Below, piece by piece: positions 27,853-57,978 of a DNA stretch of 64,000 bases. The stretch covers positions 186,001-250,000 of the forward strand of contig NZ_CP022363.1 in the NCBI RefSeq assembly GCF_003119115.1, read 5' to 3'. A model generated the notes under the pieces. It saw nothing but the letters and a program-made list of their open reading frames with translations. It had not been told where the DNA came from and ran no database searches. How positions within the stretch are numbered: position 1 is the first letter of the stretch; each line of letters opens with the position of its first letter. This stretch comes from Azospirillum sp. TSH58 (GTDB taxonomy: Bacteria; Pseudomonadota; Alphaproteobacteria; Azospirillales; Azospirillaceae). Made by a program: the position numbers and the translations under genes.

Positions 27853-27855
27853 GGC

Positions 27856-30016: not shown

Positions 30017-30081
30017 CCTTTGCTCCGGAAGCGCAACGATCCAGGATTCGCGAGCGGTCCTGTACGCTTATTTGTTTCAGC

Positions 30082-30128: not shown

Positions 30129-30137
30129 CCATCGGAA

Positions 30138-32046: not shown

Positions 32047-32065
32047 GGGCGGCGCTAGGCCGCCC
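32047..32065 (-). terminator. Hairpin spanning the stop codon of the giant gene
   Basis: GGGCGGC (32047-32053) pairs with GCCGCCC (32059-32065) around GCTAG, which contains the TAG stop. The placement, with the stop inside the loop, is like the repeat at 25573. Function uncertain. Confidence 0.35.
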
Positions 32066-41000: not shown

Positions 41001-44000
41001 CACGCTCGGCGCCGCGCTGTTCACCGGCGCGCTGTTGGTGATCGCCGTGTACGTCGAGGTGGCGGTCTGCGTGCCGCCCTTGCCGTCGTTGGCCGTCACC
41101 ACGACGCGCAGGTACTTGTGGGCGTCCGAGGTGGTCAGCGTGTAACTGGAGCTCGTCGCCCCGCTGATCGAGGCGCCGTTGGTCCCGGTGGTGTCGTCGG
41201 CCCGGTACCACTGATAGCTGTAGGTCCGGCCGTCGCCGTCGGCGTCCGTCCAGGTGCCGTTGGTGGTCGACAGCGCGCTGCCCACCGTCGCCGTGCCGGT
41301 CACGCTCGGCGCCGCGCTGTTCACCGGCGCGCTGTTGGTGATCGCCGTGTACGTCGAGGTGGCGGTCTGCGTGCCGCCCTTGCCGTCGTTGGCCGTCACC
41401 ACGACGCGCAGGTACTTGTGGGCGTCCGAGGTGGTCAGCGTGTAACTGGAGCTCGTCGCTCCGCTGATCGAGGCGCCGTTGGTCCCGGTGGTGTCGTCCG
41501 CCCGGTACCATTGGTACGAATAGGTCCGGCCGTCGCCATCGGCGTCCGTCCAGGTGCCGTTCGTTGTGCTCAGCGCGTTGCCGACCGTCGCCGTGCCGCT
41601 CACGCTCGGCACCGCGCTGTTCACCGGCGCGCTGTTGGTGATCGCCGTGTAGGTCGAAGTGGCGGTCTGCGTGCCGCCCTTGCCGTCGTTGGCCGTCACC
41701 ACGACGCGCAGGTACTTGTGGGCGTCCGAGGTGGTCAGCGTGTAACTGGAGCTCGTCGCCCCGCTGATCGAGGCGCCGTTGGTCCCGGTGGTGTCGTCGG
41801 CCCGGTACCACTGATAGCTGTAGGTCCGGCCGTCGCCGTCGGCGTCCGTCCAGGTGCCGTTGGTGGTCGACAGCGCGCTGCCCACCGTCGCCGTGCCGGT
41901 CACGCTCGGCGCCGCGCTGTTCACCGGCGCGCTGTTGGTGATCGCCGTGTACGTCGAGGTGGCGGTCTGCGTGCCGCCCTTGCCGTCGTTGGCCGTCACC
42001 ACGACGCGCAGGCACTTGTGGGCGTCCGAGGTGGTCAGCGTGTAACTGGAGCTCGTCGCTCCGCTGATCGAGGCGCCGTTGGTCCCGGTGGTGTCGTCCG
42101 CCCGGTACCATTGGTACGAATAGGTCCGGCCGTCGCCATCGGCGTCCGTCCAGGTGCCGTTCGTTGTGCTCAGCGCGTTGCCGACCGTCGCCGTGCCGCT
42201 CACGCTCGGCACCGCGCTGTTCACCGGCGCGCTGTTGGTGATCGCCGTGTAGGTCGAAGTGGCGGTCTGCGTGCCGCCCTTGCCGTCGTTGGCCGTCACC
42301 ACGACGCGCAGGTACTTGTGGGCGTCCGAGGTGGTCAGCGTGTAGCTGGAGCTCGTCGCTCCGCTGATCGAGGCGCCGTTGGTCCCGGCGGTGTCGTCGG
42401 CACGATACCACTGGTACGAATAGGTCTGGCCGTCGCCGTCGGCGTCCGTCCAGGTGCCATTCGTTGTGCTCAGCGCGTTGCCCACCGTCGCCGTTCCGCT
42501 CACCGTCGGCGCCGCGCTGTTCACCGGCGCGCTGTTGGTGATCGCCGTGTAGGTCGAGGTGGCGGTCTGCGTGCCGCCCTTGCCGTCGTTGGCCGTCACC
42601 ACGACGCGCAGGTACTTGTGGGCGTCCGAGGTGGTCAGCGTGTAGCTGGAGCTCGTCGCCCCGCTGATCGAGGCGCCGTTGGTCCCGGTGGTGTCGTCCG
42701 CCCGGTACCACTGATAGCTGTAGGTCCGGCCGTCACCGTCGGCGTCCGTCCAGGTGCCATTCGTTGTGCTCAGCGCGTTGCCGACCGTCGCCGTGCCGCT
42801 CACGCTCGGCACCGCGCTGTTCACCGGCGCGCTGTTGGTGATCGCCGTGTAGGTCGAAGTGGCGGTCTGCGTGCCGCCCTTGCCGTCGTTGGCCGTCACC
42901 ACCACCCGCAGGTACTTGTGGGCGTCCGAGGTGGTCAGCGTGTAGCTGGAGCTCGTCGCTCCGCTGATCGAGGTGGCGTTGGTCCCGGTGGTGTCGTCCG
43001 CCCGGTACCACTGATAGCTGTAGGTCCGGCTGTCTCCATCGGCGTCCGTCCAGGTGCCGTTGCTCGTCGACAGCGCGTTGCCGACCGTCGCCGTGCCCGA
43101 CACGCTCGGCACCGCGCTGTTCACCGGCGCGCTGTTGGTGATCGCCGTGTAGGTGGAATAGGCCGTCGTCGTGTTGGAGTTGCCGTCGTTGGCGATCACC
43201 GCCACGCGCAGGTACTTGTGGGCGTCCGAGGTGGTCAGCGTGTAGCTGGCGCTCGTCGCCCCGGCGATCGACGCCGCGTTGGTGCCGTTGGTGTCGTCGG
43301 CACGGTACCACTGGTAGCTGTAGCTCAGCGAGTCGCCGTCCGGATCGCTCCAGGTGCCGGTCCCCCCGGTCAGCGCGTTGCCCACCGTCGCCGTTCCGCC
43401 CACCGTCGGAACCACGCTGTTCACCGGCGCGCCGTTGCCCGCCGCCGCCACCTGCGACGAGTAAGCCGACGTGGCCGCCTGCGTGCCGCCGCGCCCGTCG
43501 TTGGCCGTCACCTCCACCCGCAGGTACTTGTTCAGATCGCCCGCCGCCAGCGTGTAGCTGGAGCTCGTCGCTCCGCTGATCGAGGTGGCGTTGGTCCCGT
43601 TGCTGTCGTCGGCCCGGTACCATTGGTACGAATAGGTCCGGCCATCACCGTCGGCGTCCGTCCAGGTGCCATTCGTTGTGCTCAGCGCGTTGCCCACCGT
43701 CGCCGTGCCGCTCACGCTCGGCGCCGCGCTGTTCACCGGCGCGCTGTTGGTGATCGCCGTGTAGGTGGAATAGGCCGTCGTCGTGTTGGAGTTGCCGTCG
43801 TTGGCGATCACCGCCACGCGCAGGTACTTGTGGGCGTCCGACGTGGTCAGCGTGTAGCTGGCGCTCGTCGCCCCGGCGATCGACGCCGCGTTGGTGCCGT
43901 TGGTGTCGTCCGCCCGGTACCACTGGTAGCTGTAGCTCAGCGAGTCGCCGTCCGGATCGCTCCAGGTGCCGGTCCCCCCGGTCAGCGCGTTGCCCACCGT

Positions 44001-47000
44001 CGCCGTTCCGCCCACCGTGGGAACCACGCTGTTCACCGGCGCGCCGTTGCCGGCCGCCGCCACCTGCGACGAGTAAGCCGACGTGGCCGCCTGCGTGCCG
44101 CCGCGCCCGTCGTTGGCCGTCACCTCCACCCGCAGGTACTTGTTCAGATCGCCCGCCGCCAGCGTGTAGCTGGAGCTCGTCGCTCCGCTGATCGAGGTGG
44201 CGTTGGTCCCGTTGCTGTCGTCGGCACGGTACCACTGGTAGCTGTAGGTCCGACTGTCTCCATCGGCGTCCGTCCAGGTGCCGTTGCTCGTCGACAGCGC
44301 GTTGCCCACCGTCGCCGTGCCGCTCACGCTCGGCGCCGCGCTGTTCACCGGCGCGCTGTTGGTGATCGCCGTGTAGGTGGAATAGGCCGTCGTCGTGTTG
44401 GAGTTGCCGTCGTTGGCGATCACCGCCACGCGCAGATACTTGTGGGCGTCCGACGTGGTCAGCGTGTAGCTGGCGCTCGTCGCCCCGGCGATCGACGCCG
44501 CGTTGGTGCCGTTGGTGTCGTCGGCCCGGTACCACTGGTAGCTGTAGCTCAGCGAGTCGCCGTCCGGATCGCTCCAGGTGCCGGTCCCCCCGGTCAGTGC
44601 GTTGCCCACCGTCGCCGTTCCGCCCACCGTCGGAACCACGCTGTTCACCGGCGCGCCGTTGGAGGGGGAAGAACCCCCGAGGGTGATCTGGCTGGTCCGT
44701 GCGGTGCTGGTCGTTTCACCGTCGTTGACGGTGACCGTCGCGGTGCGGGTACCCGCCGTGGCGCTGCCGGCGGTGTTCTTGTACTGGATCAGCTGGAGCA
44801 CCGCCTGGTAACCCGCCACGCTGGCCGCACCCCGCAGGGTGATCGTGCCGGTGTCGTTGCCGGTGACGCTGATGCCGTAGGTCTTGGCCGTCGCCACGGA
44901 CGCCGTAAGCATGCTCAGCACTTCCGCCGCGCCGTCCGACGTGCCGGACAGGGTGATGGTGGCGCCGAGCAGGCGCGTGTCGCTGTCCGTCTGGGTCACG
45001 ACGGCGTTGGGAGCGATCAGCACGCCGGAGGCGGGGGTGGAGGTGCTGACGGACTCCCCGGTGCCGGCGCCCGCCCCGTTCAGGTCGACCGACGGGTCGC
45101 CCGCGTTCCAATGCACTTCGTAAGCGCCGAGGTCGAGGACACCGTCACGGATGCGGTCGATGCCGCGGATGTCGTAGCTACCGCCGTAGCGGTTCGCGTT
45201 GCTGCTGTCGCCGGCGTTGATGAAGGTCGTCGCTGTCGAGGCCGGACGATAGTCGCGCAGGCTCTTTGTGGCGTTGGTGGAGTCGACGAAGATCGCATTG
45301 CCAGTTATGGCACCCTGATAATTGCTGCCTGTGTTCAGGGTGATCTTTCCGCTGTTGTAAATAATGGCGTTCGGATCGGCAAAACTCGTCCCGCCAAGAC
45401 TACCGGAATTGCCCGCAATGATCGTGTTGTAAACGTTGACCGTTGCTGTTCCCGTAGAACCGTTGTACACGGTACCGATCGCCGCGGTATTGATGGCAGC
45501 GGCCGCCGCGTTGTTGGCGATGAAACTGTTGTTGGCAATGGTGACATTGCGTATGTTCGCCGTGAAAGCCGACGCGCTGCTCTGCACCACGATGATGCCG
45601 CCGGGATAGGTGGCGCTGTTCCCGTCGGGGCTCATGACGAAACTGTTGTCGACAAAGACACTGTTTTCGATCGTGGTCGCTACGGATGCCTGCGATTTGA
45701 TCACCGCATGTGCGGCGGTCCCGGCCACCATCCCAACGTTTTCACGAAAAACGGAGTTCCTAACCGTCACATTTGCCGCATTGGTGCCGGTGTAGATGAT
45801 CGTGTTCGCATTGTTCGCAAAGGTCACGCCGTCCACTTCGATCGAACCGTTCGTCAAGGCCAAAAGGCCGCCGGCGCCAGTTGCAACGTAAAAGCGCTCG
45901 AACGTCAAATTCTTGACCGTCAGCGTCTTGGCCGACGCGTTGAAGGTGATGCCGCGGTAGTCGGTCGACGCGGGCACACTGCCGGTGCCGGCGCCGGATA
46001 TGGTGATGTCGGCAATCCCATCACCGTTCACATCACCGTTGATCGTTATGTCCTGAGCCGCCGCCGTCAGGGGAGACGACGTGACACCCAGGGAAATCGT
46101 ACTGGACGTCAACGTCGAGCTGAACTCGATGATGGTCGATTGGGTCGCGTTCTTGATCGCGTCGTTCAGCGATCCGGCCGCCGTTCCGCTCGCCGAGGTG
46201 ACGACGACGGTTCCCAGCCGGCCGCTGAAGGTTTCCATGGACGCGCGGGCGAAGGGAATCGCCGCTTCGATAGCCCCGCTTTGCACCTCCAGCGTCCAGT
46301 TCTGGCCGGCGGCGTTGCCGGTCTCGTCGCTGGACACCGCCACGTCGGCCCCGGTGAGCCGGTGGATCGTCTGGACGAACTCCTGCCCCGCCTGTCCGGC
46401 GCCGACGTTGCAGGCGTAGAAAAGAATGTCGCCGCCGGGCTTCAGCGCGGCGCCGATCGCCTGGAGATCCTGGGCGCGATTCGCCAGCCCGTCCGCCCAA
46501 TAGGCGCGGCCGGCGATGTAGAGATGGCCCTCGTTGCCATGGCTGACGACCTGGACGGAATCCAGGCCGGACATCCCGGACAGCGCCTTCGCCATCTGGC
46601 CGAGCGCTTCCTGCTGGGAGTCGAGGAGAACGACCTTGGCGTCGGGCGCGATGTCCTTGAGCAGCGTCTGGTAGTCGGACACGCTGGTATCGACGAACAC
46701 CACCGACCGGGCCGCTCCCTGGAGCCCGGCGAGTCGCGCCGTAACCGCCGCGGGCTCGGTGAGCGCCGGGGCGGAGGCGGCCGGAGACGACGCCGCGGCG
46801 GGAACGGTCGACTCCTTGATGGCCCAATCGGCAAGCTTGTCGGCGTCGGCAGCCTTCGCGGCGCCCTTGTCGCCCGGCGCGGGCTGATCGGGTTGCTGAT
46901 GGACCTCGGCGGCCGTGACGGCACCCGCCGCGTCGAACATGAAGCGCGGTTCGAGAGCCATCGCGAACATCGATGAGGACGGCTTGTGCGTCTTGCCGGA

Positions 47001-47045
47001 ACGCCCAGTCACACCATTGCCGTTCGAACCACGCTTGCGCGTCAT
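32055..47045 (-). CDS. Giant LEPR/DUF4347 surface protein with 28 tandem repeats
   Basis: 4996 residues. There is no Sec signal peptide; instead the N-terminus has the LEPRFMFDAAG motif (about 35-45) typical of large exported proteins with DUF4347. DUF4347 spans about 111-275 (VVFVDTSVSDYQTLLKDI, VSHGNEGHLYIAGR, FYACNVGAG). A parallel beta-helix follows (about 285-640). Residues 796-3603 are 28 repeats with consensus elements GTATVGNALSTTNGTW, DADGDG, YSYQWYRADD and HKYLRVVVTANDGKGGTQ. Then come cadherin-like and bacterial Ig-like domains (about 3604-4610) and a Gly/Pro-rich tail (about 4615-4996) with three SDAGRSIT-like motifs. No RTX nonapeptides are seen. It is probably a cell-surface or matrix adhesin exported by the four downstream gene products. 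GGGAG lies before ATG 47045; an upstream in-frame start at 47138 is less likely. Confidence 0.92.
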   Translation of the reverse strand: MTRKRGSNGNGVTGRSGKTHKPSSSMFAMALEPRFMFDAAGAVTAAEVHQQPDQPAPGDKGAAKAADADKLADWAIKESTVPAAASSPAASAPALTEPAAVTARLAGLQGAARSVVFVDTSVSDYQTLLKDIAPDAKVVLLDSQQEALGQMAKALSGMSGLDSVQVVSHGNEGHLYIAGRAYWADGLANRAQDLQAIGAALKPGGDILFYACNVGAGQAGQEFVQTIHRLTGADVAVSSDETGNAAGQNWTLEVQSGAIEAAIPFARASMETFSGRLGTVVVTSASGTAAGSLNDAIKNATQSTIIEFSSTLTSSTISLGVTSSPLTAAAQDITINGDVNGDGIADITISGAGTGSVPASTDYRGITFNASAKTLTVKNLTFERFYVATGAGGLLALTNGSIEVDGVTFANNANTIIYTGTNAANVTVRNSVFRENVGMVAGTAAHAVIKSQASVATTIENSVFVDNSFVMSPDGNSATYPGGIIVVQSSASAFTANIRNVTIANNSFIANNAAAAAINTAAIGTVYNGSTGTATVNVYNTIIAGNSGSLGGTSFADPNAIIYNSGKITLNTGSNYQGAITGNAIFVDSTNATKSLRDYRPASTATTFINAGDSSNANRYGGSYDIRGIDRIRDGVLDLGAYEVHWNAGDPSVDLNGAGAGTGESVSTSTPASGVLIAPNAVVTQTDSDTRLLGATITLSGTSDGAAEVLSMLTASVATAKTYGISVTGNDTGTITLRGAASVAGYQAVLQLIQYKNTAGSATAGTRTATVTVNDGETTSTARTSQITLGGSSPSNGAPVNSVVPTVGGTATVGNALTGGTGTWSDPDGDSLSYSYQWYRADDTNGTNAASIAGATSASYTLTTSDAHKYLRVAVIANDGNSNTTTAYSTYTAITNSAPVNSAAPSVSGTATVGNALSTSNGTWTDADGDSRTYSYQWYRADDSNGTNATSISGATSSSYTLAAGDLNKYLRVEVTANDGRGGTQAATSAYSSQVAAAGNGAPVNSVVPTVGGTATVGNALTGGTGTWSDPDGDSLSYSYQWYRADDTNGTNAASIAGATSASYTLTTSDAHKYLRVAVIANDGNSNTTTAYSTYTAITNSAPVNSAAPSVSGTATVGNALSTTNGTWTDADGDGRTYSYQWYRADDSNGTNATSISGATSSSYTLAAGDLNKYLRVEVTANDGRGGTQAATSAYSSQVAAAGNGAPVNSVVPTVGGTATVGNALTGGTGTWSDPDGDSLSYSYQWYRADDTNGTNAASIAGATSASYTLTTSDAHKYLRVAVIANDGNSNTTTAYSTYTAITNSAPVNSAVPSVSGTATVGNALSTSNGTWTDADGDSRTYSYQWYRADDTTGTNATSISGATSSSYTLTTSDAHKYLRVVVTANDGKGGTQTATSTYTAITNSAPVNSAVPSVSGTATVGNALSTTNGTWTDADGDGRTYSYQWYRADDTTGTNGASISGATSSSYTLTTSDAHKYLRVVVTANDGKGGTQTATSTYTAITNSAPVNSAAPTVSGTATVGNALSTTNGTWTDADGDGQTYSYQWYRADDTAGTNGASISGATSSSYTLTTSDAHKYLRVVVTANDGKGGTQTATSTYTAITNSAPVNSAVPSVSGTATVGNALSTTNGTWTDADGDGRTYSYQWYRADDTTGTNGASISGATSSSYTLTTSDAHKCLRVVVTANDGKGGTQTATSTYTAITNSAPVNSAAPSVTGTATVGSALSTTNGTWTDADGDGRTYSYQWYRADDTTGTNGASISGATSSSYTLTTSDAHKYLRVVVTANDGKGGTQTATSTYTAITNSAPVNSAVPSVSGTATVGNALSTTNGTWTDADGDGRTYSYQWYRADDTTGTNGASISGATSSSYTLTTSDAHKYLRVVVTANDGKGGTQTATSTYTAITNSAPVNSAAPSVTGTATVGSALSTTNGTWTDADGDGRTYSYQWYRADDTTGTNGASISGATSSSYTLTTSDAHKYLRVVVTANDGKGGTQTATSTYTAITNSAPVNSAAPSVSGTATVGNALSTTNGTWTDADGDGRTYSYQWYRADDTTGTNGASISGATSSSYTLTTSDAHKYLRVVVTANDGKGGTQTATSTYTAITNSAPVNSAAPTVSGTATVGNALSTTNGTWTDADGDGQTYSYQWYRADDTAGTNGASISGATSSSYTLTTSDAHKYLRVVVTANDGKGGTQTATSTYTAITNSAPVNSAVPSVSGTATVGNALSTTNGTWTDADGDGRTYSYQWYRADDTTGTNGASISGATSSSYTLTTSDAHKYLRVVVTANDGKGGTQTATSTYTAITNSAPVNSAAPSVTGTATVGSALSTTNGTWTDADGDGRTYSYQWYRADDTTGTNGASISGATSSSYTLTTSDAHKYLRVVVTANDGKGGTQTATSTYTAITNSAPVNSAVPSVSGTATVGNALSTTNGTWTDADGDGRTYSYQWYRADDTTGTNGASISGATSSSYTLTTSDAHKYLRVVVTANDGKGGTQTATSTYTAITNSAPVNSAAPSVTGTATVGSALSTTNGTWTDADGDGRTYSYQWYRADDTTGTNGASISGATSSSYTLTTSDAHKYLRVVVTANDGKGGTQTATSTYTAITNSAPVNSAAPSVSGTATVGNALSTTNGTWTDADGDGQTYSYQWYRADDTAGTNGASISGATSSSYTLTTSDAHKYLRVVVTANDGKGGTQTATSTYTAITNSAPVNSAVPSVSGTATVGNALSTTNGTWTDADGDGRTYSYQWYRADDTTGTNGASISGATSSSYTLTTSDAHKYLRVVVTANDGKGGTQTATSTYTAITNSAPVNSAAPSVSGTATVGNALSTTNGTWTDADGDGRTYSYQWYRADDTTGTNGASISGATSSSYTLTTSDAHKYLRVVVTANDGKGGTQTATSTYTAITNSAPVNSAVPSVSGTATVGNALSTTNGTWTDADGDGRTYSYQWYRADDTTGTNGASISGATSSSYTLTTSDAHKYLRVVVTANDGKGGTQTATSTYTAITNSAPVNSAVPSVSGTATVGNALSTTNGTWTDADGDGRTYSYQWYRADDSTGTNGASISGATSSSYTLTTSDAHKYLRVVVTANDGKGGTQTATSTYTAITNSAPVNSAAPSVSGTATVGNALSTTNGTWTDADGDGRTYSYQWYRADDSNGTNGASISGATSSSYTLTTSDAHKYLRVVVTANDGKGGTQTATSTYTAITNSAPVNSAAPSVTGTATVGSALSTTNGTWTDADGDGRTYSYQWYRADDTTGTNGASISGATSSSYTLTTSDAHKYLRVVVTANDGKGGTQTATSTYTAITNSAPVNSAAPSVTGTATVGNALSTTNGTWTDADGDGRTYSYQWYRADDTTGTNGASISGATSSSYTLTTSDAHKYLRVVVTANDGKGGTQTATSTYTAITNSAPVNSAVPSVSGTATVGNALSTTNGTWTDADGDGRTYSYQWYRADDTTGTNGASISGATSSSYTLTTSDAHKYLRVVVTANDGKGGTQTATSTYTAITNSAPVNSAVPSVSGTATVGNALSTTNGTWTDADGDGRTYSYQWYRADDTTGTNGASISGATSSSYTLTTSDAHKYLRVVVTANDGKGGTQTATSIYTAVINSAPVLSTDARSLTAIQEDATGNNGDTVAAILASAGTATDVDGNTLGIAITATDTSNGVWQYKTGAGTWTTITGVSGASALLLASTDRVRFVPNADYNGSVANGITFKAWDQTAGTAGTTVGNDTTANGGLGAGGQFSAASVTAGIDVTAVNDAPVLTDTVLTLPSVAQAAGAPNGAVGVAVSSLVALGANVSDVDSGAVTGIALVGLDNSEGGTWYYSTDGGTSWTAVGTVNDSGNALLLRTTDRLYYQPTGANAGILSAAITFRAWDQTSGTAGTKVATAGGGGTSAFSAATDTASLSITPAILGSAVTLAPASDTGNSNTDNITKASSVTFNGSGANANASTTVRLYANGSLVATTTADASGAYSFTGVDVSGLSGAVDFTVRQVIAGMESADSAVRTVTFDRTAPTVAITTVSGDNVLNASESAVAQTVSGTTTGVEDGQTVTVTLNGKTYTTTVTNNAWSLSIPSADLQALPDGGTYAITADLTDVAGNAAVQATRSVSVDRTPPTLAIATVAGDNVLNAADSAVGQTVAGVTNGVEYGRTVTVTLNGKSYTTTVTNNRWSLTVPSSDLLALTDGANYTVTASLTDAAGNPTQATRSVAVDRTPPSVVSVTPPPARTYLPGETVSFFVQLSEASIISGGNPVLELAVGSEIRNATYNAAGSTGTLLRFDYVVPVGDRAPQGIAVLGLALNGSIVTDAAQGPLVTTLKGVGDTSQVRIDTPIPAKPVGTALSGLSDSGVSATDRLTNVTRPTLSGTAEANATVTVLVDGKAVGTAVADENGFWVHRLQTALTDGTHSITTTATNRFGIVSDPSDALTVVIDTAVPVAPAPSVTSATVAGATAGERISGIATPSLAGTTEAGSTVNVLVDGKAVGTALADANGAWTFQFTAALADGTHSLQVQATDKAGNVSSLSAVTTLTIDTTPPVAPTVALNTTVGSTPVVQGTAEANSLVTVTINGQAVGTARASATGVWQLALASDLSVGSYVISAKASDAVGNTGNAGTTTYSVAPPPPPPVVVVAASTGNTTTAASPSNSAVATSAGTTQTTGPTLGTAPTLPSLQTSSDAGRVITSSSIGSGSGSGNGNSSTDAGRSITIGNIGNSTSSDAGRSITISAMGGAPSGGGTANSSNGVLGGGTGGSSGSGLSGVVSGGSGLGSGGLGGGVGGGVGGGSGLGGSALGGTASGGIGAGAGAGFGGAPAGGGPGAGLGSGGPATGGPAAGGPATGTGTGNGGLNGGVGGPGGAAGSATGGTPGGSAAPGGPGTATGGPGGAPGNRPGGQPGPGSTIESAPANRPAAPGGPQGRPQGQGQGQPPAGDAPPAGGDPAAAPAAPDGPGQAPGPRADLDGTLPARPAFSRQVAQVHGAADAQSAALLAALISHAPPGSRAA
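36237..44660 (-). repeat. 28 tandem 300-bp repeats in the giant surface-protein gene
   Basis: Boundaries at the AsnSerAlaProVal or AsnGlyAlaProVal codons fall every 300 bases, giving 26 units of 300 bp and two of 312 bp (units 2 and 4 from the N-terminus). The first five units alternate between two types; the rest are near-identical. Period divisibility by three keeps several frames free of stops, which explains the long antisense open frame across the gene. Confidence 0.95.
39253..42713 (-). repeat. Recent 1.66-kb duplication (offset 1800 bp) within the repeat array
   Basis: Bases 39253-40913 equal 41053-42713 except one position, T at 40213 versus C at 42013. On the coding strand this changes TAC to TGC and gives the only HKCLRV among the repeats. 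A smaller 600-bp copy (about 39361-39940 equals 39961-40540) is nested inside, showing stepwise expansion by whole units. Confidence 0.9.
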
Positions 47046-47282
47046 CGTCAGTCTCCCGCCATACGCAACACCGCCCGACCCTAAGCCGAAAGCGGTCACC
47101 AAAAAGTGAATAGCGTTGGAAGGGTACCACCTTTTCACAGTCGTTGACAGCGCATCGGTCTATTCAGGCGACAAAAGGGGTGCCCGATTTGCACCGATTC
47201 GCGTCGTCAAAAAGAACAGCATGTCATAATTTGACGCATTTGCTTCCGCGAAGCGTTTTGTATTTCATTGCTGAAACGAACG

Positions 47283-49237: not shown

Positions 49238-49558
49238 ATGACCATCGACATCGCCTCCATCTCCCACGAGATGTTCGCCCCGCATCTCGGCCAGACGTTC
49301 CGTTTCGTGGCCCCGGAGGACGGGTCCGTGATCACGGAGGTCGAGTTGACGAAGCTGACGCCGCGGCCGGAATGCACGCCGCGCTGGGCGAAACGCACGT
49401 CCTTTTCGGCTCTGTTCGAAACCTACGGCCCCAGCCAGCTGTGGAACGGCTATTTCCAGATCGACCATCCGACGATGGGATTGCTGGGCCCCTTCTACAT
49501 CGTGCGGATCATTCCGCGCGATCCCGAACGGGGCTGCTTCGAGCTGGTCCTGAACTGA
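49238..49558 (+). CDS. Small DUF6916-like protein
   Basis: 106 residues between the two tail-collar genes. It starts MTIDIASISHEMFAPHLGQTF and is beta-rich, with PSQLWNGYFQIDHPTMGLLGPFYIVRIIP. Small proteins of this type (DUF6916, as I recall the family) recur beside tail-collar genes. No signal peptide or membrane span is visible. A chaperone or accessory role for the collar proteins is an inference from this conserved neighbourhood. Confidence 0.75.
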   Translation: MTIDIASISHEMFAPHLGQTFRFVAPEDGSVITEVELTKLTPRPECTPRWAKRTSFSALFETYGPSQLWNGYFQIDHPTMGLLGPFYIVRIIPRDPERGCFELVLN

Positions 49559-49635
49559 GCCCCGGCAGCCAGACGCCACCGCACAACACCGCGCACCGTC
49601 CGTCCCAGCGCATCGATTCCACCGGAGATTTCGCC

Positions 49636-50322
49636 ATGGAATTCTACCTAGGTTCCGTTTTTCCATTCGCCGGCAATTTCGCCCCCGTGAACACGCAGCA
49701 ATGCCTGGGGCAGGCGGTGAACACGAGCCAGTACCAAGCCCTGTGGGCGGTCATGGCCGGGGCCTTCGGCGGCGGACAGGGCTCCCCGACGTTCAACCTG
49801 CCGGACCTGCGCGGCCGCGTGATGGTGGGGCCGGGCACCAGCCCCTACACCAGCACCACGCTCAACAACGGCAACGCGGGCGGGACGCAGTACACGACGA
49901 TCATCGGCAACAATCTGCCGATGCACACCCACGGGGCCGCCTTCCAGGGTGGCAGCGCGGGCGGCACCGCCCCGTTCAACGCGACGGTCACCGTTCCGCT
50001 GAACCCCGCCGTCGGCACCAGCAACATCCCGTCCGCCATTCCCGCGGTGCTGGGCGGCCAGTTCGTCGACCCGAGCACCGACCTGAGCGTCGACGGCCCC
50101 TACATCCCGGCCTCCAGCCTGCCGACGCCGCCGACCGGAAGCTCGCTGACAGGCGCGCTCTCCTCGCAGGGCACGGTCAGCGGCGGTCCCACGGGTGCCA
50201 CCGTTGCGGTGAGCCCGGGCGGCGGCGTCGTCTCAACCCCGGTCGCGATCAACAACCTGCAACCCTACCAGTCGCTGTTCTTCTTCATCTTCATGCTGGG
50301 CTATTTCCCGTCGCGTGATTGA
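49636..50322 (+). CDS. Phage-tail-collar (MdpB-type) protein, second paralogue
   Basis: 228 residues with the same plan as the protein at 48456: MEFYLGSVFPFAGNFAP, QCLGQ, NLPDLRGRVMVGPG, a variable Gly/Thr-rich middle, and the end NNLQPYQSLFFFIFMLGYFPSRD. The middle has diverged most, which suits a host- or ligand-contact region. GGAG precedes the ATG. Its 3' end overlaps the convergent hydrolase gene by 32 bases. Confidence 0.9.
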   Translation: MEFYLGSVFPFAGNFAPVNTQQCLGQAVNTSQYQALWAVMAGAFGGGQGSPTFNLPDLRGRVMVGPGTSPYTSTTLNNGNAGGTQYTTIIGNNLPMHTHGAAFQGGSAGGTAPFNATVTVPLNPAVGTSNIPSAIPAVLGGQFVDPSTDLSVDGPYIPASSLPTPPTGSSLTGALSSQGTVSGGPTGATVAVSPGGGVVSTPVAINNLQPYQSLFFFIFMLGYFPSRD

Positions 50323-52120
50323 TGCGGAGAGCCCCGGTCCCTTCCGGTGGGCCGGGGCCTTCCCCGCGCACGGCGCCTGCCGCGCCCGCACCGATCCGGA
50401 TCAGCAGATCATCGAGTAGACCGGCGAAGCGCTCCCGTGCGGCGCGCTCCATCAGGCTGTGGTCGGCTCCGGCGATGCGCTCCATCCTCAAGCCGCCCAT
50501 CCGGCGCAGACGCCCGCCGCCCGCCCCGGCCTGGGCCTCCAACTCGCCCAGCGTCACGTCGCCCTCGCTGTGCACCATCAATGCGAGGACTCCGCGGTCG
50601 GTCAGCGCCTGGAAGGCGTGGAGCAGGTCGTCGCGGGCGTAGCCCCGGCCCGTCAGCCCGGCGCGCAGCCGCCCGGCCCCGATGCGCAGGCGGCGGGCCG
50701 CGCGCTCCGACAGGCCGAGCGCGACGCGCGACGCCTTGCGGTCCTGGCGCAGGATGGCCCGCCACACCGCCGGCTCGGTCAGCCGGGGCAGATAGGCGGC
50801 GGCCGGCTTCACCGCGCTGCCGATGGCCTCCTCCTGCGTCACGCCGTCCCCCAGGACGAAGCGGCCCGGATTGACCAGCGCCAGCCCGACCACCCGCGGG
50901 TCGGCCAGCGCCACATGCAGCGCCACCGCCGCGCCTGCGCACAGCCCCACGGCGACGGCGGCGCCATGCCCCGCCGCCGCCAGCGCGTCCAGCCCGGCCC
51001 GCGCGTCCTCCACCATGTCCCGGCAATAGATCAGCCCGTCGCGGCGCCCCGGCTTCGACGCGCTGTCCCCCAGCCCGCCCAGGTCGAGGCGCAGCGAGGC
51101 GATTCCCCGCGCCGCCAGCCGCCGGGCCAGCCGCACCGACATGCGCCCGGTGCCGGTGTGGGGCGTGGCGCCGCTGTTCAGCAGCAGAACGGCGGGCCGC
51201 CCGGTGGTCGCGGCGGCAGGCTCGCAGAGGATGCCGAACAGACCGGCGCCGGGACCGAAGCGGAGCGGGCGCTCCACCGCGCCGGCAAAGCACAAACGGA
51301 GGGTCGGCGCCTCCACCGTCCGGACCGGCCCCGGGGGCGCCATGTCCTGCGTCAGCCAGGCCGTCACCCGTGCGAAGGCCGGGCAGTCCAGGGCCGCGTG
51401 CTGGACGCTGGTCATCAGCCGTGCGTGGTCGGCAAAGGGCGCCTCCTCCACCGCGGCGCCCAGAGCACGGAACCGCTCCGCCAGAACGGCGGCGCGGCCC
51501 TCCGGGCGATCGAGGATGAGCACCCGCCGCGCCGGAGCCTCCGTCATCCGCGCAAGGTCGAGCGCGCGCAGAGCCTCCACCGTTTCCGGAGCCAAACGGA
51601 AGCCGGCGCTGTCGATCCCCTCCGGCCCCACCGCGGACGGGGCATTCGCCGGCCGTTCGGCGAGCAGGGCCACCGCCCGCAACTCCTGGAGGAAGGCCCG
51701 GCCCGAGGGGAAGGGGGACAGCAGGACCAGGGAGTCCGCCCCCACCTCGCGGGCCGCCGCCGCCGCGAGCAGCGCGCCCAGCCGCAAGCCCACCAGAGCC
51801 ACCTCCTCCACCCCCGCGACGGCGCGCAGATGGGCGGCCGCGGCGCGGATGCCGCCGAGCCACGCCTCCAGCCGGGCCGGATCGCCCTCCTCCCCGGCGC
51901 TGTTTCCGGTGCCGGGATAATCGAAGCGCAGAACCGGCATCCCCGCCGCCGCCAGTGCCCCGGCGAAGCCGCGCCACGCCCGGTGGGTGGCCAGCGCCTC
52001 TCCGCCATAGGGCGCGCACAGCACGACGCCGCGCCGCCCTCCCGCCGGGTGCAGCCAGCCGAAACAGCCTTCGAACAGAATGGGTGCGGCAGCGTCGGAT
52101 GTGAGCCGATCGGGCGTCAT
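50291..52120 (-). CDS. Tandem alpha/beta-hydrolase protein (two domains)
   Basis: 609 residues made of two alpha/beta-hydrolase domains. The first (about 12-290) keeps the fold (VVLCAPYGGE, RFDYPGTGNSAG), but its nucleophile elbow reads GLRLG (Arg112), with no serine. The second (about 310-590) has GGLGDSASKP and a nucleophile elbow GLCAG with Cys. A likely acid Asp (VHSEGDVTL) and His (GADHSLME) complete it. So the first domain is probably non-catalytic and the second may be a Cys-nucleophile hydrolase or acyltransferase. It is the last gene of the carrier-protein operon and overlaps the preceding gene by four bases (ATGA). It could release or transfer the acyl group (inference). Confidence 0.85.
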   Translation of the reverse strand: MTPDRLTSDAAAPILFEGCFGWLHPAGGRRGVVLCAPYGGEALATHRAWRGFAGALAAAGMPVLRFDYPGTGNSAGEEGDPARLEAWLGGIRAAAAHLRAVAGVEEVALVGLRLGALLAAAAAREVGADSLVLLSPFPSGRAFLQELRAVALLAERPANAPSAVGPEGIDSAGFRLAPETVEALRALDLARMTEAPARRVLILDRPEGRAAVLAERFRALGAAVEEAPFADHARLMTSVQHAALDCPAFARVTAWLTQDMAPPGPVRTVEAPTLRLCFAGAVERPLRFGPGAGLFGILCEPAAATTGRPAVLLLNSGATPHTGTGRMSVRLARRLAARGIASLRLDLGGLGDSASKPGRRDGLIYCRDMVEDARAGLDALAAAGHGAAVAVGLCAGAAVALHVALADPRVVGLALVNPGRFVLGDGVTQEEAIGSAVKPAAAYLPRLTEPAVWRAILRQDRKASRVALGLSERAARRLRIGAGRLRAGLTGRGYARDDLLHAFQALTDRGVLALMVHSEGDVTLGELEAQAGAGGGRLRRMGGLRMERIAGADHSLMERAARERFAGLLDDLLIRIGAGAAGAVRGEGPGPPEGTGALRINHATGNSPA

Positions 52121-54558
52121 GCGGTCCACCGGTAGCGCGTCGGGTCCAGACCGTTCAACGCGTGGACCTCGCCATCGGGCACCGCCGCGCCGGGATGACG
52201 CGGGACCAGCCGGACCCGGCGCTCCCGTCCTGGCGGCAGATGGAACCACTCCTCCTCGGCCCGGAACCCGTCGTCCTCGATGTGGACGGAGCGGGCAAGC
52301 CGCCGGCTCGACAGGAACAGCACCCACCCCTCGTCCGTCCGCTCCAGGCGGGTGCCGAGGCCCAGCTCCGCACGCTCCATCCGCCCGCCCTGGAGAAAAT
52401 GGAAGGCCTCCGCCACCGGCGTGCCGGACCGCGGGTCGGACAGCGCCGCCACCACCACGTCGTGCGCCGGCGGGCCGAAACGGTAGGCGCCGGTCAGGTC
52501 GACAAAGCGGTCGGGCAGCGAGGCAGCCGGAACCATCTGGACGCTGCGCGGCGGCAGGGTGACCGTCCGCTCGGCCCGCAGCACCGGCACCTCGCCCCGC
52601 CGCAGGGCGGTCAGGGTCAGCACCGCCTCCACCGGCGCCGCCGTCTCGTTCAGCAGATGGATCGCCAGCCCGTTCACCCCCTCGTCGGTCAGCAGCACCT
52701 GCACGGGCCGGAAGGCGCGGCGCAAGGCGTGCCACGCCGCCTTCGGCACACGGCCGGAATCGACCACGCCCCAGCCGGCCCCCGGCCAGACGTCCTGGAA
52801 CATCCAGACCAGCCCGCCCCCGCAGGAGGAGCCCGCCCGCCGCCACTCCGCGAAGACGGCCTCCATCACCTCCCCCGTCACCGCGCGGGACAGCCGCGCG
52901 TAGCGGTCGGGGTCCTCGTAGCGCAGGACCATGGGATCGACGCCGTACAGGCCGCGCAGGTAATGGTCCCGCACATCCTCGAAATCCCACGGGGCGCCGG
53001 GGTCGCGCGGCACGCGCGCCTTCCAGCGCGGGTCATGAACCGCCGGCACGCCGGGCAGCGCCCCGGCCGCCGGCATGTTGGCGAAGGCGAGGCATTCGGA
53101 GGCGAAGCGAACATTCGCCCGACGCGCGTCCTCCAGCGGGCGCAGATAGGCGCCGACGCCGTAGTAATGGGTCACCCCCGCGTCGGCGGCGAAGGGTAGC
53201 GGCCCGCCGGTCGGGGAGTTGGCCACGTATGGCACATCGGGCCGTCCCCGCTCCGCCTCGTCCCGCAGGACACTGTCGAACAGCGGCTGGCTCCAGCGCT
53301 CGCGCGGCAAACCGAGCATGGCCGCCTGCTGCTCCGCCTCGCTGCCGCCGCACAGCACGGCCAGCGACGGCGCCGACTGGACCCGGTCGAGGAACTGCGC
53401 CGCCTCCCGCCGGGCGCCGTCGAGGAACGGCTCGTCGGCCGGATAGTCGAAATTGGCGAACATGAAGTCCTGCCAGACGAGAATCCCCATCTCGTCGCAC
53501 AGGTCGAAGAAGGCGTCGGCCTCGTAGGCGGCGATGCCCGGCACCCGCAGCATGGTCATGCCGGCCTGCCGCGCCAGTTCCAGCCAGGGAGCGTAGGCGT
53601 CCCGCGTCCCCGGCAAGGCCACGACGTCGGGGCTGCTCCAGCAGGCGCCGCGGCAGAAGATGCGCTCCCCGTTGATGCGCAGGGCGAAGCCGTCACCGGG
53701 CTCCCGCTCGATGCGGCGGAAGCCGGTCCGGCCCAGCTCGATGCGGGCGTCGCCCACCACCGCGCGCACGGTGTGGAGCGCCGGGTTGCCATGGCTGTGC
53801 GGCCACCAGGGCGCGACCTCCGGCAGGCGGACGTCGCCGCGCAACTCTCCCGTCCCGGTCCAGCGGAGCGGCGCCCGCGCCTCCCCCACCTCCAGCCATC
53901 CCGGCGGCGGAGCGGAGCCGCTCCAGTCCGCCGCCAGGGCCAGGGATAACCGGCCGTCCCGCCCGTCCAGCGTGGCGCGCAGATCCGCCGCGCGGACGCG
54001 CAGCGGTCCGGTTTCCGTGATGAGGTCCACCGGGCGCCAGGGACCGACCGCCGGCACGGGCGGGCACCAGCCGGGCATATGCCCCAGCAGCGTCGTCCGC
54101 ACCGCGCGCAGCCCCGCCGGACCGGCCAGCCGGACCGGCCAGCGCCCCCGCCCCTTCTGCGCCTTCAGAACCGGATTCAGGGCACGGAAGACGATGCGCA
54201 GCGCGTGCGTCCCGCGCAACGTCACCGGAACGTCGTGGCTCTGGAACATGCTGGCGCTGCTCAGGATGCGCTTGCCGTCCAGCCAGACCTCCGCAACGGT
54301 GGCGAGGCCATGGAAACGCAGGATGCAAGGCCCGTCACCGGTCAGCGTCACCCGGTACCAGACGTCGCGGTCGTGCAGGGGAAGCGGATCGCCCAAGCGG
54401 TAGAGCCCGGCCGCGCGCAACGCCTGCGCGACGGTGCCGGGCACCGGGGCGGGCAGCCAGTCCCCCGCAGGCGTTCCCCCCGGCTCGGTCACGCACAGCT
54501 CCCACCCCGCGGACAGGGGCGTCACGCTGCGGCCCGTCACGGCGTGTAGGCGCGCCAT
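52117..54558 (-). CDS. Glycoside hydrolase family 2-type (beta-mannosidase-like) protein
   Basis: 813 residues. The N-terminal jelly-roll domain (WYRVTLTGDGPCILRFHGLATVAEVWLDG) and Ig-like domain precede a TIM barrel (about 285-620). Recognisable GH2 elements are NGERIFCRGACW, MTMLRVPGIAAYE, FFDLCDEMGILVWQDFMFAN, the acid/base region LCGGSEAEQQ (Glu where NGNNE is usual) and the nucleophile-like FASECLAFANMP. C-terminal beta domains follow. Both catalytic Glu positions look kept, but the acid/base motif is atypical, so the substrate may differ from mannosides. No signal peptide is seen, so it is cytoplasmic. Its place in a carrier-protein operon is unexpected and suggests it acts on a glycoside made or tailored there. 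Confidence 0.87.
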   Translation of the reverse strand: MARLHAVTGRSVTPLSAGWELCVTEPGGTPAGDWLPAPVPGTVAQALRAAGLYRLGDPLPLHDRDVWYRVTLTGDGPCILRFHGLATVAEVWLDGKRILSSASMFQSHDVPVTLRGTHALRIVFRALNPVLKAQKGRGRWPVRLAGPAGLRAVRTTLLGHMPGWCPPVPAVGPWRPVDLITETGPLRVRAADLRATLDGRDGRLSLALAADWSGSAPPPGWLEVGEARAPLRWTGTGELRGDVRLPEVAPWWPHSHGNPALHTVRAVVGDARIELGRTGFRRIEREPGDGFALRINGERIFCRGACWSSPDVVALPGTRDAYAPWLELARQAGMTMLRVPGIAAYEADAFFDLCDEMGILVWQDFMFANFDYPADEPFLDGARREAAQFLDRVQSAPSLAVLCGGSEAEQQAAMLGLPRERWSQPLFDSVLRDEAERGRPDVPYVANSPTGGPLPFAADAGVTHYYGVGAYLRPLEDARRANVRFASECLAFANMPAAGALPGVPAVHDPRWKARVPRDPGAPWDFEDVRDHYLRGLYGVDPMVLRYEDPDRYARLSRAVTGEVMEAVFAEWRRAGSSCGGGLVWMFQDVWPGAGWGVVDSGRVPKAAWHALRRAFRPVQVLLTDEGVNGLAIHLLNETAAPVEAVLTLTALRRGEVPVLRAERTVTLPPRSVQMVPAASLPDRFVDLTGAYRFGPPAHDVVVAALSDPRSGTPVAEAFHFLQGGRMERAELGLGTRLERTDEGWVLFLSSRRLARSVHIEDDGFRAEEEWFHLPPGRERRVRLVPRHPGAAVPDGEVHALNGLDPTRYRWTA

Positions 54559-54564
54559 CGTCCG

Positions 54565-55467
54565 TCACCCGTAACGGCGGAGCAGCGCGCCGAGCGCCCG
54601 GTCGTAGGCGCGCTCCATCGCCTCCAGCGGTTCCGCGTGATCGCCGAAGCGCCGCCGGTGCACGCCGCGCGCGAGCTGGAACTGAAACGCCTTGGCGGTG
54701 GCGGAGAGGGTGGCGCAGGCCTCCGCCGCGTCCGCCGGCCCGCCGATCCAGCGCGCATACATCCCGAGAAGCTCGAAATTCGCCCCCACCTGCCGCAGCG
54801 TGTTGAAGGCGTAGAGATGGAAATAGTCCATGGGCCGGGCGGCCAGCGTTTCCAAATGCTCGGGCAAGGCGGCGCGGAAGGCGGCGATGGGGTTGTCCAC
54901 CGGACGGCGGCCCAGATGGCGGGACAGCAGCCCGCGGGACGCCTCCATCAGGGCCTCCCCCTCCAAGGCCGGACCGCCGCGCTTCACGAACTCCACATAG
55001 GGGAACAGGGGGGCGGGGGCGAACAGGCCGTCGTAATCCTCCCCCTCCAGCGTGAAGCGCCCGGCGTTGTGGATGTAGTCGAGCCGCCGCGCGCCCGTGT
55101 CCATGCCGAGGATCGCGATGGTCGTCTTGACGCGCTGCGCGCGATACGAGGTTCCCCGCGTGTCGGGCAGGTGATAGCCGTCCACCTCCACCAGCACCGG
55201 GCGGCCGCGCGCCACCTGCACCGCCGCGTGGGTCTCCACCCGGTCGTAGAGGGCGAGTTCCTGCACCTCCAGCCCATAGAGGCGGCGCAGGTCCTCCGGC
55301 GGCACCTTGAAGAAGGTGAACTGGTCGCCTTCGAAATCCTGCGCGACGGTGAAGGCCAGGGCGGCCATCGGTTCCATCCCCAGCGCCCGCAGCAGCCCGA
55401 GCCACAGGTCGGTGTAGCAGTTGGTCTCCGCCCAGTCGCGGTCCGGCCTGTCGAGCGGATGCGCCAT
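54565..55467 (-). CDS. DUF1839 family protein
   Basis: 300 residues, no signal peptide. The middle has conserved-looking DFEGDQFTFFKVPPEDLRRLYGL, VEVDGYHLPDTRGTSYRAQRVKTTIAI and DYIHNAGRFTLEGEDYDGLF; the C-terminus is helical (YFHLYAFNTLRQVGANFELLGMYARWI). DUF1839 genes are found next to amino acid:[carrier protein] ligase genes, as here (the ligase is 20 bases upstream). The fold and the VEVDGYHLPDT and TIAI segments are reminiscent of papain-like peptide or acyltransferase domains, so an aminoacyl acceptor role is possible but unproven. ATG 55467 follows GGGGAGG. Confidence 0.87.
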   Translation of the reverse strand: MAHPLDRPDRDWAETNCYTDLWLGLLRALGMEPMAALAFTVAQDFEGDQFTFFKVPPEDLRRLYGLEVQELALYDRVETHAAVQVARGRPVLVEVDGYHLPDTRGTSYRAQRVKTTIAILGMDTGARRLDYIHNAGRFTLEGEDYDGLFAPAPLFPYVEFVKRGGPALEGEALMEASRGLLSRHLGRRPVDNPIAAFRAALPEHLETLAARPMDYFHLYAFNTLRQVGANFELLGMYARWIGGPADAAEACATLSATAKAFQFQLARGVHRRRFGDHAEPLEAMERAYDRALGALLRRYG

Positions 55468-55487
55468 GCCCGGCCTCCCCTGCCCGC

Positions 55488-56426
55488 TCAGCCCCACAGG
55501 ACGGCGCGCACGGCGGCCGGCCACGCCTTCACATCGAAGCCGTGATGGCGGAACAGCGCCAGCGCCACCCGCTCCATCCCGAAGCCGACGCAGGCCGTGT
55601 GGGCGACGGCACCGTCCGGCGTCCGCAGATCCCACAACAGCCCGAAATGGTCCTGGTGGTAGTTGAAGCTGAGGCAGGCGGTGGGCTGTTCCGCCGACGC
55701 GATGGGGATCAGCAGTTCGAACTTCAGCCCCTGGTCGCGCTGGCTGGCCGCCAGCATCCTGCCGGCCCGCCCGAAGAAGGGGTCGTTCGCCAGATCGACC
55801 GCCACCGGCAGGGAGAGCGATTCCATCAGCGCCCGCCCGCGCTCCACCCAGCTCTGCCGAAAGGCCATGACCTGCTCCGGCGTGCCGGCGCGCACATATT
55901 CGCGCATCCGGAACAGCTGCATGCGCGCCGGGTCCAGCGACGGTTCATGGCGGAAGCAGTAGGAATAGACATCGACCAGCGCGCCGTCGGCGGGCAGCGG
56001 CCCGCGCTCCGCGATGGTCGGGTAGACGGGGTAGCAGGCGGCGGGAGTCAGGACGACGTTGGTCGCCATCTGGGCGTCGGTCCACTCCTCCCCCTCCTCC
56101 AGCCGGCGCAGCAGGGACTGGTGGGCGCGCTCGTCGCCCTTGAAGGCGTGAACGGTGCCGGCCAGATGCGGAAAGCTCTTCAGATAGCCGCTCTGTTCGA
56201 ACTGATGGCGGGCCACCCCCGGAGGAAAGCGCATCACGTCCGCGCCGTCGTCGCCACCCCAGGTGGTGATCAGGTCGTTGAAGCGCTCCACGACATCCTC
56301 GAAGACGCCGCTGCGGCCGTAGAGCCCGTCGACCCCCGTGGGGATCAGCAGCCCGGCCGCGACCAGCGCATCGCGGAACGCCGCCTGCCCATTCTCCGCC
56401 GGTGTACTTCCTGCCCGCATGTCCAT
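55488..56426 (-). CDS. Amino acid:[carrier protein] ligase (class II seryl-tRNA synthetase-like)
   Basis: 312 residues, the catalytic-domain-only length of this family. Class II synthetase motif 2 is [21 protein letters not shown] and motif 3 is [13 protein letters not shown]. The zinc-ligand pattern Cys131, Glu176, Cys279 is intact. It lacks the tRNA-binding N-terminal coiled coil of SerRS. Characterised homologues from Bradyrhizobium and relatives activate glycine or alanine with ATP and load it on the phosphopantetheine arm of a small carrier protein, not on tRNA. The carrier-protein gene lies two genes upstream in the same operon. Which amino acid is used here cannot be read from the motifs alone. 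Confidence 0.93.
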
Positions 56427-56452
56427 CCGCCGCGTTCCGTTCCGAGAAAGCC

Positions 56453-57652
56453 TCAGCCGAAGAGAGTGCCGTTGTCCCTGTGCGCCAGCAGCAGGTTCGC
56501 CGTGTTGCCCAGTATCCGGTCGTTGTTGATCATCAGCGGCGCCGAGTGGGCGTCGCGCAGATGGCGGCACAGGCTGTAGGGGCTGTCGTTGCGGTAGGCG
56601 GCCAAGCCGCCGGCCAGCATCGCCTGCCCGACGATCCGCACCACCATCTCCGCCGCTTCCGTCTTCAGCGTGTTCATGGCGACCGTGAAGCCCGGCGCGG
56701 TGAGACGGTCGGGATCGTCCGCCGCCTCCTCGAACCGGGCGAGCGCACCGCGCACCATGCCGCGCATGGTCTGAAGCCCGGCGGTCGCCTCGGCCAGCCG
56801 CCGCGCCCCCGGCGGCGGGGTGCCGGGGCGCTTGCGCGCCTCCGCCCGGATGAAGGCGGCGGCCCGCGCCACCGCGTCCGTCGCGATCCCCAGCCAGACG
56901 CTGCTCCACAGGATGTGGGTCACCGGCAGCATGGTGCGGGCGGAGATGTCGGCGTAGGGCAGCGGCAGGATCTGCGTCCGGTCGGCCTCCGCCACCAGAC
57001 GGAAGCCGATGCTGCGGGTGCCCCGCATGCCCAGCGTGTCCCAGCCGCCGATCTCCTCCAACCGCGTCTGCCCGCGCAGCACCGGCACGATGACCTGATC
57101 GGAGGGCGGCGAGTCCGCCGTGCGCCGCGCCGTCACCAGGATCGCGTCGGCCTCCGTCCCGTAGGAAATGACCGTCGCCTGCTTTTCCAGCCGGAAGGCC
57201 GCGCCCGTCGCGTCGTCGCCCGCGCCTTCGACCGCGCAGGCGCTGGAGCGGACGTCGCCGCCGATCCCGGCCTCGGTCGTCGCGGAGGCGAGAAGAAGCT
57301 GCTCCCCGGCCAAGCGCTCCAGGAAACCGCGATGCCAGTCGCTGCCCTGCCCATGGCGCACGAGGCAGGCCACCTGGATCTGGTGCATGGCGTAGATCAG
57401 CCCGGTGGACGGGCATTGCCGGGCCAGCGCGTGGGCCACCGCCGCCGCATCGGCCAGACCGCTGCCGCCGCCGCCGAAATCCCGCGGCACCATCAGGCCG
57501 AGCAGCCGCGCCTCCTTCAGGGCGGCGAAGGCTTCGGCGGGAAAGCGCGCCTCGCGGTCCACGCTGTCCGCATGGCGCCCGGCGACGGCCGCGGCATCGG
57601 CGGCAACCTCGGCGGCCATCGCGGGCAAGCTGTCCGGTGCCGGCGCCCTCAT
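56453..57652 (-). CDS. Acyl-CoA dehydrogenase-like flavoprotein
   Basis: 399 residues with the acyl-CoA dehydrogenase fold: helical N-domain ([22 protein letters not shown]), beta-domain ([35 protein letters not shown]) and C-terminal helices ([36 protein letters not shown]). The typical FAD-contacting Arg/Gly elements are visible; the usual catalytic Glu is not obvious. It begins inside the stop of the carrier-protein gene (ATGA overlap), so a carrier-bound substrate is more likely than CoA esters. An analogy is the flavoprotein that oxidises prolyl-S-carrier protein to pyrrolyl in pyoluteorin-type pathways. Confidence 0.9.
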
Positions 57653-57978
57653 CCAGCCCCCAACCCGCCCGGCGCGCCGCCCAGCAAACCGGCGACCGCG
57701 GAACGGATCGCCGCGATGCTCTCGAAGGTGCGGCGGCGCAGCAGATGTTCCGGGAACTCGACGCCGTAGCGCTCCTCCAGCGCCAGCATCAGGTTCACCG
57801 ACCCGTGGGAGGTCAGTCCGGCGGCGTAGAGATCGTCCTCGTCGGCCAGGCTGGAGGCGTCGGTGGCCAGCCAGCCGCTCTCGGCCAGAAGCGCCCGGAT
57901 GTCGGCGGCGCTGACCGCCGGGGCATCGCCGCCCCGCGGCGCCGTCCCAGCCGCGATCTGCCAATCCGGTTGGCGCAT
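57649..57978 (-). CDS. Acyl/aminoacyl carrier protein
   Basis: 109 residues, with a carrier-protein domain in the last 80: [46 protein letters not shown], where Ser in GLTSHGS is the phosphopantetheine attachment site. It would accept the amino acid activated by the ligase at 55488. The first 30 residues are a loose, Gly/Ala-rich leader. ATG 57978 is chosen because AGGAGG stands seven bases upstream; ATG 57984 would be only one base from it. First gene of the operon; its promoter lies in 57979-58202, shared with osmC. Confidence 0.9.

Follow-up and report, generated by a model that had tools for sequence, protein, structure and literature searches.

A conserved operon of Azospirillum sp. TSH58 as a candidate aminoacyl-transfer cassette acting on sugar or exopolysaccharide

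A six-gene operon on the minus strand of Azospirillum sp. TSH58 (positions 50291–57978 of the 64,000-nucleotide stretch of contig NZ_CP022363.1 analysed here, referred to below as the window) encodes a carrier protein, a flavoprotein with the acyl-CoA dehydrogenase (ACAD) fold, an amino acid:[carrier protein] (aa:CP) ligase, a DUF1839 protein, a family 2 glycoside hydrolase (GH2) and a tandem α/β-hydrolase, and we think it reasonably likely that these form a self-contained aminoacyl-transfer cassette acting on a sugar or exopolysaccharide (EPS). In the mechanism we propose, the tRNA-synthetase-like ligase would activate a small amino acid and attach it as a thioester to the phosphopantetheine on Ser57 of the dedicated carrier, the flavoprotein would modify the carrier-bound amino acid (oxygenation or oxidation at the nitrogen or alpha carbon being likelier than α,β-desaturation), and Cys27 of the DUF1839 protein would accept the acyl group and then pass it to an amino or hydroxyl group of the sugar in a ping-pong reaction like that of CcbD. 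An earlier note on this DNA had expected an aminoacyl-derived and possibly glycosylated product; this is supported in outline, as a product that would be aminoacyl-derived and sugar-linked.

Gene content and conservation of the cassette

All six open reading frames (ORFs) that the earlier note had assigned to the operon are present, and they are tightly packed. The two four-base overlaps it had described are also present, at the carrier/ACAD (57649–57652) and GH2/hydrolase (52117–52120) junctions, while the genes at the other three junctions are separated by 26, 20 and 6 bp.

The synteny of the cassette is far above chance. In an even sample of 385 genomes of the class, DUF1839 was found in five and a full-score ligase in ten, with all five among the ten, a co-occurrence with a probability of ~4e-9 under independence when phylogeny is ignored. 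A phylum sample supplied 14 further DUF1839 genomes, giving 19 in total, and in every one of these the ligase adjoins a DUF1839 copy, with the GH2 gene also there in 18. A scan of named genomes yielded at least 585 confirmed stretches, and among the matches listed were 80 loci from Azospirillum, Reyranella, Methylobacterium, Paraburkholderia, Caballeronia, Mesorhizobium, Roseibium and other genera. The ligase and ACAD genes are each present in 79 of these 80 listed loci, the carrier in 78, GH2 in 77 and the hydrolase, either in the operon or divergent, in 45, and the order carrier–ACAD–ligase–DUF1839–GH2 recurs in nearly all of them. The earlier note had held that its reading would fail if the neighbouring genes were not conserved with the ligase; they are strictly conserved.

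Pairwise distances of the cassette genes correlate (r = 0.81–0.95), as expected for a cassette inherited together. It is absent from one genome of the same genus and from three other genomes of the family, and a bare carrier–ACAD–ligase–DUF1839–GH2 set lies on a conjugative plasmid of 228 kb in Rhizobium leguminosarum (L139, 12604–18418); the cassette is therefore moved or lost as a unit.

The ligase (55488–56426, minus strand) is a class II, seryl-tRNA-synthetase-like protein of 312 amino acids which scores 523.5 bits on NF005479 (cut-off 357), and its residues 25–310 (286 residues) align with the solved Bll0957 (Protein Data Bank (PDB) entries 3mey and 4h2w, E 1e-96 to 1e-98). It has the class II ligase core without a tRNA-binding domain, and the zinc ligands listed in the earlier note (Cys131, Glu176 and Cys279) are present and invariant across 80 homologues. 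The carrier (57649–57978, minus strand) scores 93.8 bits on NF005480 (cut-off 72) and matches PP-binding at E 2.8e-7; its best PDB matches are Atu2571 from Agrobacterium (2jq4) and the carrier chain in the ligase complexes 4h2w/x/y, and the predicted phosphopantetheine site, Ser57 in AGLTSHGS, is conserved in 79/79 homologues. The presence in one operon of a Bll0957-type ligase and its apparently cognate NF005480 carrier agrees with the carrier-loading ligase of the earlier note. Family membership makes it very likely that a small amino acid is loaded onto the carrier, and by analogy with characterised family members this would be glycine or alanine; ligases of the aa:CP family have been reported to use Ala besides Gly (PMC9437257). 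According to a 2022 review, it is not known what purpose the carrier aminoacylation catalysed by these enzymes serves (PMC9437257). The cassette resembles the Bll0957/Atu2571 system in that its ligase and carrier belong to the same families, each scoring above the curated cut-off, with the same zinc ligands and adjacent genes, but differs in that its ligase is tied to the ACAD, DUF1839, GH2 and often the hydrolase.

Other arrangements of the ligase were also seen. Loci from two genomes (L032, 9828–12026 and L033, 8694–12189) have a ligase–ACAD pair without DUF1839 which, from our reading of the sequence, lies next to an apparent O-acetylhomoserine sulfhydrylase gene, and this pair may possibly have a role in sulfur amino acid metabolism. 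In Bradyrhizobium, bll0957 and bll0958 (acd) appear together in the table of a phaR mutant, each 3.0-fold changed (PMC10888616). Ligase relatives below the cut-off (125–160 bits) in other genomes of the class (L016, L017, L018, L020, L021 and L025) have no cassette gene nearby and probably represent a separate subfamily.

The DUF1839 protein and the candidate acceptor

The DUF1839 protein (54565–55467, minus strand), which we propose is a papain-fold, carrier-protein-dependent aminoacyltransferase, matches PF08893 at E 3.5e-118. Its start was taken as the ATG at 55467, following the annotated A. brasilense orthologue, and residue numbers count from the GTG at 55497. An AlphaFold2 (AF2) model was built from a 40-sequence alignment (pLDDT 91.2, pTM 0.89), and a Foldseek search of this model against the PDB returned 17 matches at E<0.001, all of which are AziU2-U3, CtaG or CcbD (E 4e-7 to 2e-4); the next match was only at E 0.12. 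These matches span the full length of the protein, which consists of a papain-like part and a C-terminal helical domain. The sole other Pfam family seen was BtrH_N (E 0.08), and the likeness to BtrH is a weak sequence match only. Cys27 (in ETNCY) is found in 37 of the 40 aligned sequences and His143 is invariant. The earlier note had missed that DUF1839 shares its fold and nucleophile with aminoacyl transferases that depend on a carrier protein.

The sequences without Cys27 come from one decayed operon and from operon copies which are backed by a second, Cys-bearing copy. The former is in Burkholderia sp. H160 (L095, 9717–11690), where the cassette is decaying, the ligase and ACAD genes are gone, a GH2 remnant is left and the DUF1839 Cys is replaced by Gly. 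The latter are seen in three betaproteobacterial loci of the Cupriavidus type, L121/L135, L122/L136 and Cupriavidus metallidurans (L160), where the operon DUF1839 lacks the Cys and another copy within a few kilobases keeps it, which suggests that the Cys-less copy in such two-copy loci is a pseudo-enzyme partner.

CcbD uses a Cys-His-Glu triad to move a carrier-bound amino acid to its catalytic Cys and then to the amino group of a sugar in a ping-pong reaction (PMC12945683), and CtaG is a peptidyl transferase working between carriers (PMC6772006). An earlier study had counted DUF1839 itself among the papain-like enzymes, giving it a permuted C(T/S)H triad, and had offered a one-line guess from genome context that it is involved in acyl-CoA-dependent glycan processing (PMC10318531); the link to carrier-dependent aminoacyl transfer is new in the present analysis. 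Given the full-length fold match of the model to CcbD, CtaG and AziU, the catalytic Cys and the cognate free-standing carrier, DUF1839 probably transfers an aminoacyl group through Cys27. The cassette differs from the CcbD/LmbD condensing enzymes in that its amino acid would be loaded by a tRNA-synthetase relative and not by a non-ribosomal peptide synthetase (NRPS) adenylation domain, and DUF1839 differs from these enzymes, AziU2-U3 and CtaG in forming its own Pfam family.

The analogy with CcbD, the GH2 gene and the loci together make a sugar the acceptor we favour on balance. The earlier note had also missed the polysaccharide loci within or next to which the cassette is found in several genera. 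All 27 loci examined from Paraburkholderia, Burkholderia, Caballeronia and Pararobbsia have polysaccharide genes within 10 kb (a Bac_transf sugar transferase, Wza, Wzc, Wzy or glycosyltransferases), in Shinella an EPS cluster is found ~7 kb from the cassette, and in Mycetohabitans the complete set of six is accompanied by an acyltransferase. The order in B. multivorans is a BerA-like CRP regulator, carrier, ACAD, ligase, DUF1839, GH2 and a sigma-54 regulator with a VpsR domain, followed by GNAT, beta-helix, flippase, glycosyltransferase, hydrolase and acyltransferase genes. This layout fits the published Bcam1330-1349 gene list, in which the hydrolase is Bcam1334, a TIGR03100 gene (PMC3584217, PMC9684580). 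The likeness to the Bep/Bec loci (BCAM1330-1349, becA-R) is that the B. multivorans cassette stands between a BerA-like and a BerB-like regulator, and that the hydrolase gene falls within the bep portion; the difference is that the published bep cluster is Bcam1330-1341 and the carrier, ligase and DUF1839 genes are not discussed there, and our literature search returned nothing on the genes that lie between BCAM1342 and BCAM1349. Transposon disruption of becG, the ACAD gene of the bec cluster in B. pseudomallei, resulted in smooth colonies and 0.84 of the wild-type biofilm (PMC5507470), and the matching layout suggests that becG is the ACAD gene of the present cassette. In the Burkholderiaceae the acceptor would likely be EPS or a lipid-linked precursor, because there the cassette lies in a Bep-type locus controlled by cyclic di-GMP (c-di-GMP).

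Several observations weigh against the proposed mechanism, in particular against EPS as the acceptor. The effect of the becG mutation is modest, and no EPS genes were found within 10 kb in the Azospirillum, Reyranella and most Methylobacterium loci, which together with the bare plasmid cassette of R. leguminosarum implies that the acceptor need not be EPS. The Bep-type setting found in the Burkholderiaceae, with regulators and Wza, Wzc, Wzy or sugar transferase genes beside the cassette, is not seen in the window, where no EPS genes were recognised around the cassette and the initiating sugar transferases are elsewhere in the genome. The fold matches of DUF1839 (TM ~0.6 at 11–15% identity) speak to its fold and class and not to its substrate, and its His and Thr/Ser positions are swapped compared to papain, so that the triad is not identical to that of CcbD (PMC10318531). 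Furthermore, as the Bep polysaccharide contains only neutral hexoses (PMC7084887), an amide of the kind made by CcbD would have no obvious site. It should be noted, however, that 0.3 M NaOH was used to extract this polysaccharide and that its nuclear magnetic resonance (NMR) spectra were recorded in NaOD (PMC7084887). Alkali would remove aminoacyl groups bound through an ester, so that the Bep structure would not show an amino acid attached in this way. We regard EPS in particular as a tentative choice of acceptor.

The same carrier and DUF1839 steps could also produce a small diffusible aminoacyl-glycoside acting as a signal or in a siderophore-like or antibiotic-like role, to which the polysaccharide neighbours in Burkholderia would be secondary. 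The five-gene plasmid cassette and the standalone cassettes of Azospirillum and Reyranella would fit such a product, as would the fact that every structural neighbour of DUF1839 stems from small-molecule pathways, but the cassette has no dedicated exporter or resistance gene, the EPS neighbourhood is consistent in all sampled Burkholderiaceae loci and in Shinella, and the cassette hydrolase is of the type of the published Bep TIGR03100 gene. On this evidence we consider a diffusible product somewhat unlikely.

Proposed modifying and editing enzymes, and neighbouring genes

Returning to the proposed aminoacyl-transfer cassette, the second step would fall to the ACAD-fold flavoprotein (56453–57652, minus strand; Pfam Acyl-CoA_dh_N and Acyl-CoA_dh_1). 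An AF2 model from 36 sequences (pLDDT 91) is nearest to the monooxygenases TdsC and DszC, with the nitrososynthase DnmZ and ACADs of the short-chain acyl-CoA dehydrogenase (SCAD) type close behind, and the best solved sequence relative is DnmZ; TdsC, DszC and DnmZ lead the matches, with true ACADs trailing by only a few-fold in E-value. The family lacks Glu at both known catalytic positions (Ile/Val375 and Thr245/His246 are found there), whereas almost every ACAD sampled from this genome carries Glu at one of the two, and His246, Trp249 and Trp253 are invariant in 79 homologues. The earlier note had the ACAD probably oxidising the amino acid; a dehydrogenase is not supported, with both glutamates absent and the nearest folds a mixture of flavin monooxygenases and ACADs, and we dropped it as the default after the comparison with the genome's own ACADs. 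An oxygenase or oxidase is more likely than a classical dehydrogenase. Whether the flavoprotein oxidises the carrier-bound amino acid at all is finely balanced. The protein resembles the class D flavin monooxygenases (DnmZ, KijD3 and TdsC/DszC) in its best sequence and fold matches and in lacking the dehydrogenase glutamates, but shares only ~20% identity with them, the operon has no flavin reductase, and several true ACADs score nearly equally.

A true dehydrogenase would convert carrier-bound alanine to a dehydroalanyl or imino acyl group, and the group transferred would then be pyruvyl-like. The fold, with many SCAD-type ACADs among its matches, and the use of Ala as well as Gly reported for family ligases (PMC9437257) would suit this, but with neither the EGT-type nor the IVD-type Glu in the cassette family, and with DnmZ and TdsC as the best sequence and fold matches, we judge it unlikely. 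That DUF1839 is not a transferase but a thioesterase or protease clearing or processing carrier proteins is very improbable, as despite its membership of the papain-like superfamily with a Cys/His pair (PMC10318531), carrier-dependent acyltransferases alone match its fold from end to end, C-terminal helical domain included, and hydrolytic papain-like enzymes appear solely at E > 0.1.

In the proposed cassette, the GH2 enzyme and the Cys α/β-hydrolase might perhaps act on the sugar or the acyl moiety, trimming or editing it. The former (52117–54558, minus strand; Glyco_hydro_2_N2) is a β-mannosidase-like retaining glycosidase whose nearest solved relative is the β-mannosidase 5n6u (E 2e-50); the predicted acid/base Glu407 (GGSE) and nucleophile Glu488 (FASE) are both conserved in 74/74 sequences, and no signal peptide is evident. 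The residue preceding the acid/base is Ser in 73 of the 74 in place of the usual Asn, a change which hints at an unusual sugar and on which we found nothing useful in the literature.

The tandem hydrolase (50291–52120, minus strand) has an N-terminal hydr2_PEP-like domain with GxRxG and no nucleophile, and a C-terminal hydr1_PEP-like domain with Cys394, Asp553 and His554 (Cys394 in 46/46 sequences and His554 in 45/46). Its elbow, GLCAG, is the Cys-elbow recognised in the earlier note. Membership of the exosortase A-associated hydrolase 1 and 2 families was rejected because both scores are below the cut-offs (121 against 168 bits for TIGR03100 and 102 against 203 for TIGR03101), and no solved relatives were found at 1e-6.

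In the window, the cassette is neighboured by an autotransporter and by a giant adhesin, the latter accompanied by type I secretion genes. The adhesin-like protein (32055–47138; 5027 amino acids) has a DUF4347/LEPR-XLL start and consists mostly of near-identical repeats of ~100 amino acids, and the apparent type I secretion genes (25651–31985) adjoin it. Closer to the cassette, two proteins with tail-collar domains, which are phage tail-fibre-like (48456–49127 and ~49630–50322), flank a DUF6916 protein (49238–49558); this trio is outside any evident prophage, and the same arrangement is found on A. brasilense plasmid p2 (L138).

Novelty and significance

Each of the protein families is known, and aminoacyl transfer from carrier to sugar is a known kind of reaction. 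No account of the gene combination, of how strictly it is conserved or of this assignment of DUF1839 turned up in the literature, with subscription papers mostly outside our search. For the aa:CP ligases, structures have been solved and the biochemistry is known, but not what they are for, and the cassette would supply the acceptor-side enzyme, DUF1839. In some genera the module also lies in biofilm polysaccharide loci that have been characterised, and the question is testable with few proteins.

In Gram-positive bacteria, the Dlt system uses a D-Ala carrier ligase and transferases, including the membrane proteins DltB and DltD, to modify teichoic acids. The cassette is like it in principle, having an ATP-dependent ligase, a carrier protein and transfer to what may be a surface polymer, but apart from the carrier fold nothing in the cassette is homologous to Dlt components, and the proposed transferase is a cytosolic papain-fold protein rather than DltB and DltD in the membrane. 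Our suggestion, put forward with less than even confidence, is that alpha- and betaproteobacteria aminoacylate biofilm EPS by means of a tRNA-synthetase-derived ligase, a free carrier and the papain-fold DUF1839, with flavin oxidation on the carrier and c-di-GMP control in Burkholderia. If true, this would be the first physiological role for the aa:CP ligases, which are look-alikes of tRNA synthetases, and would represent an EPS aminoacylation machinery wholly unlike the Dlt system.

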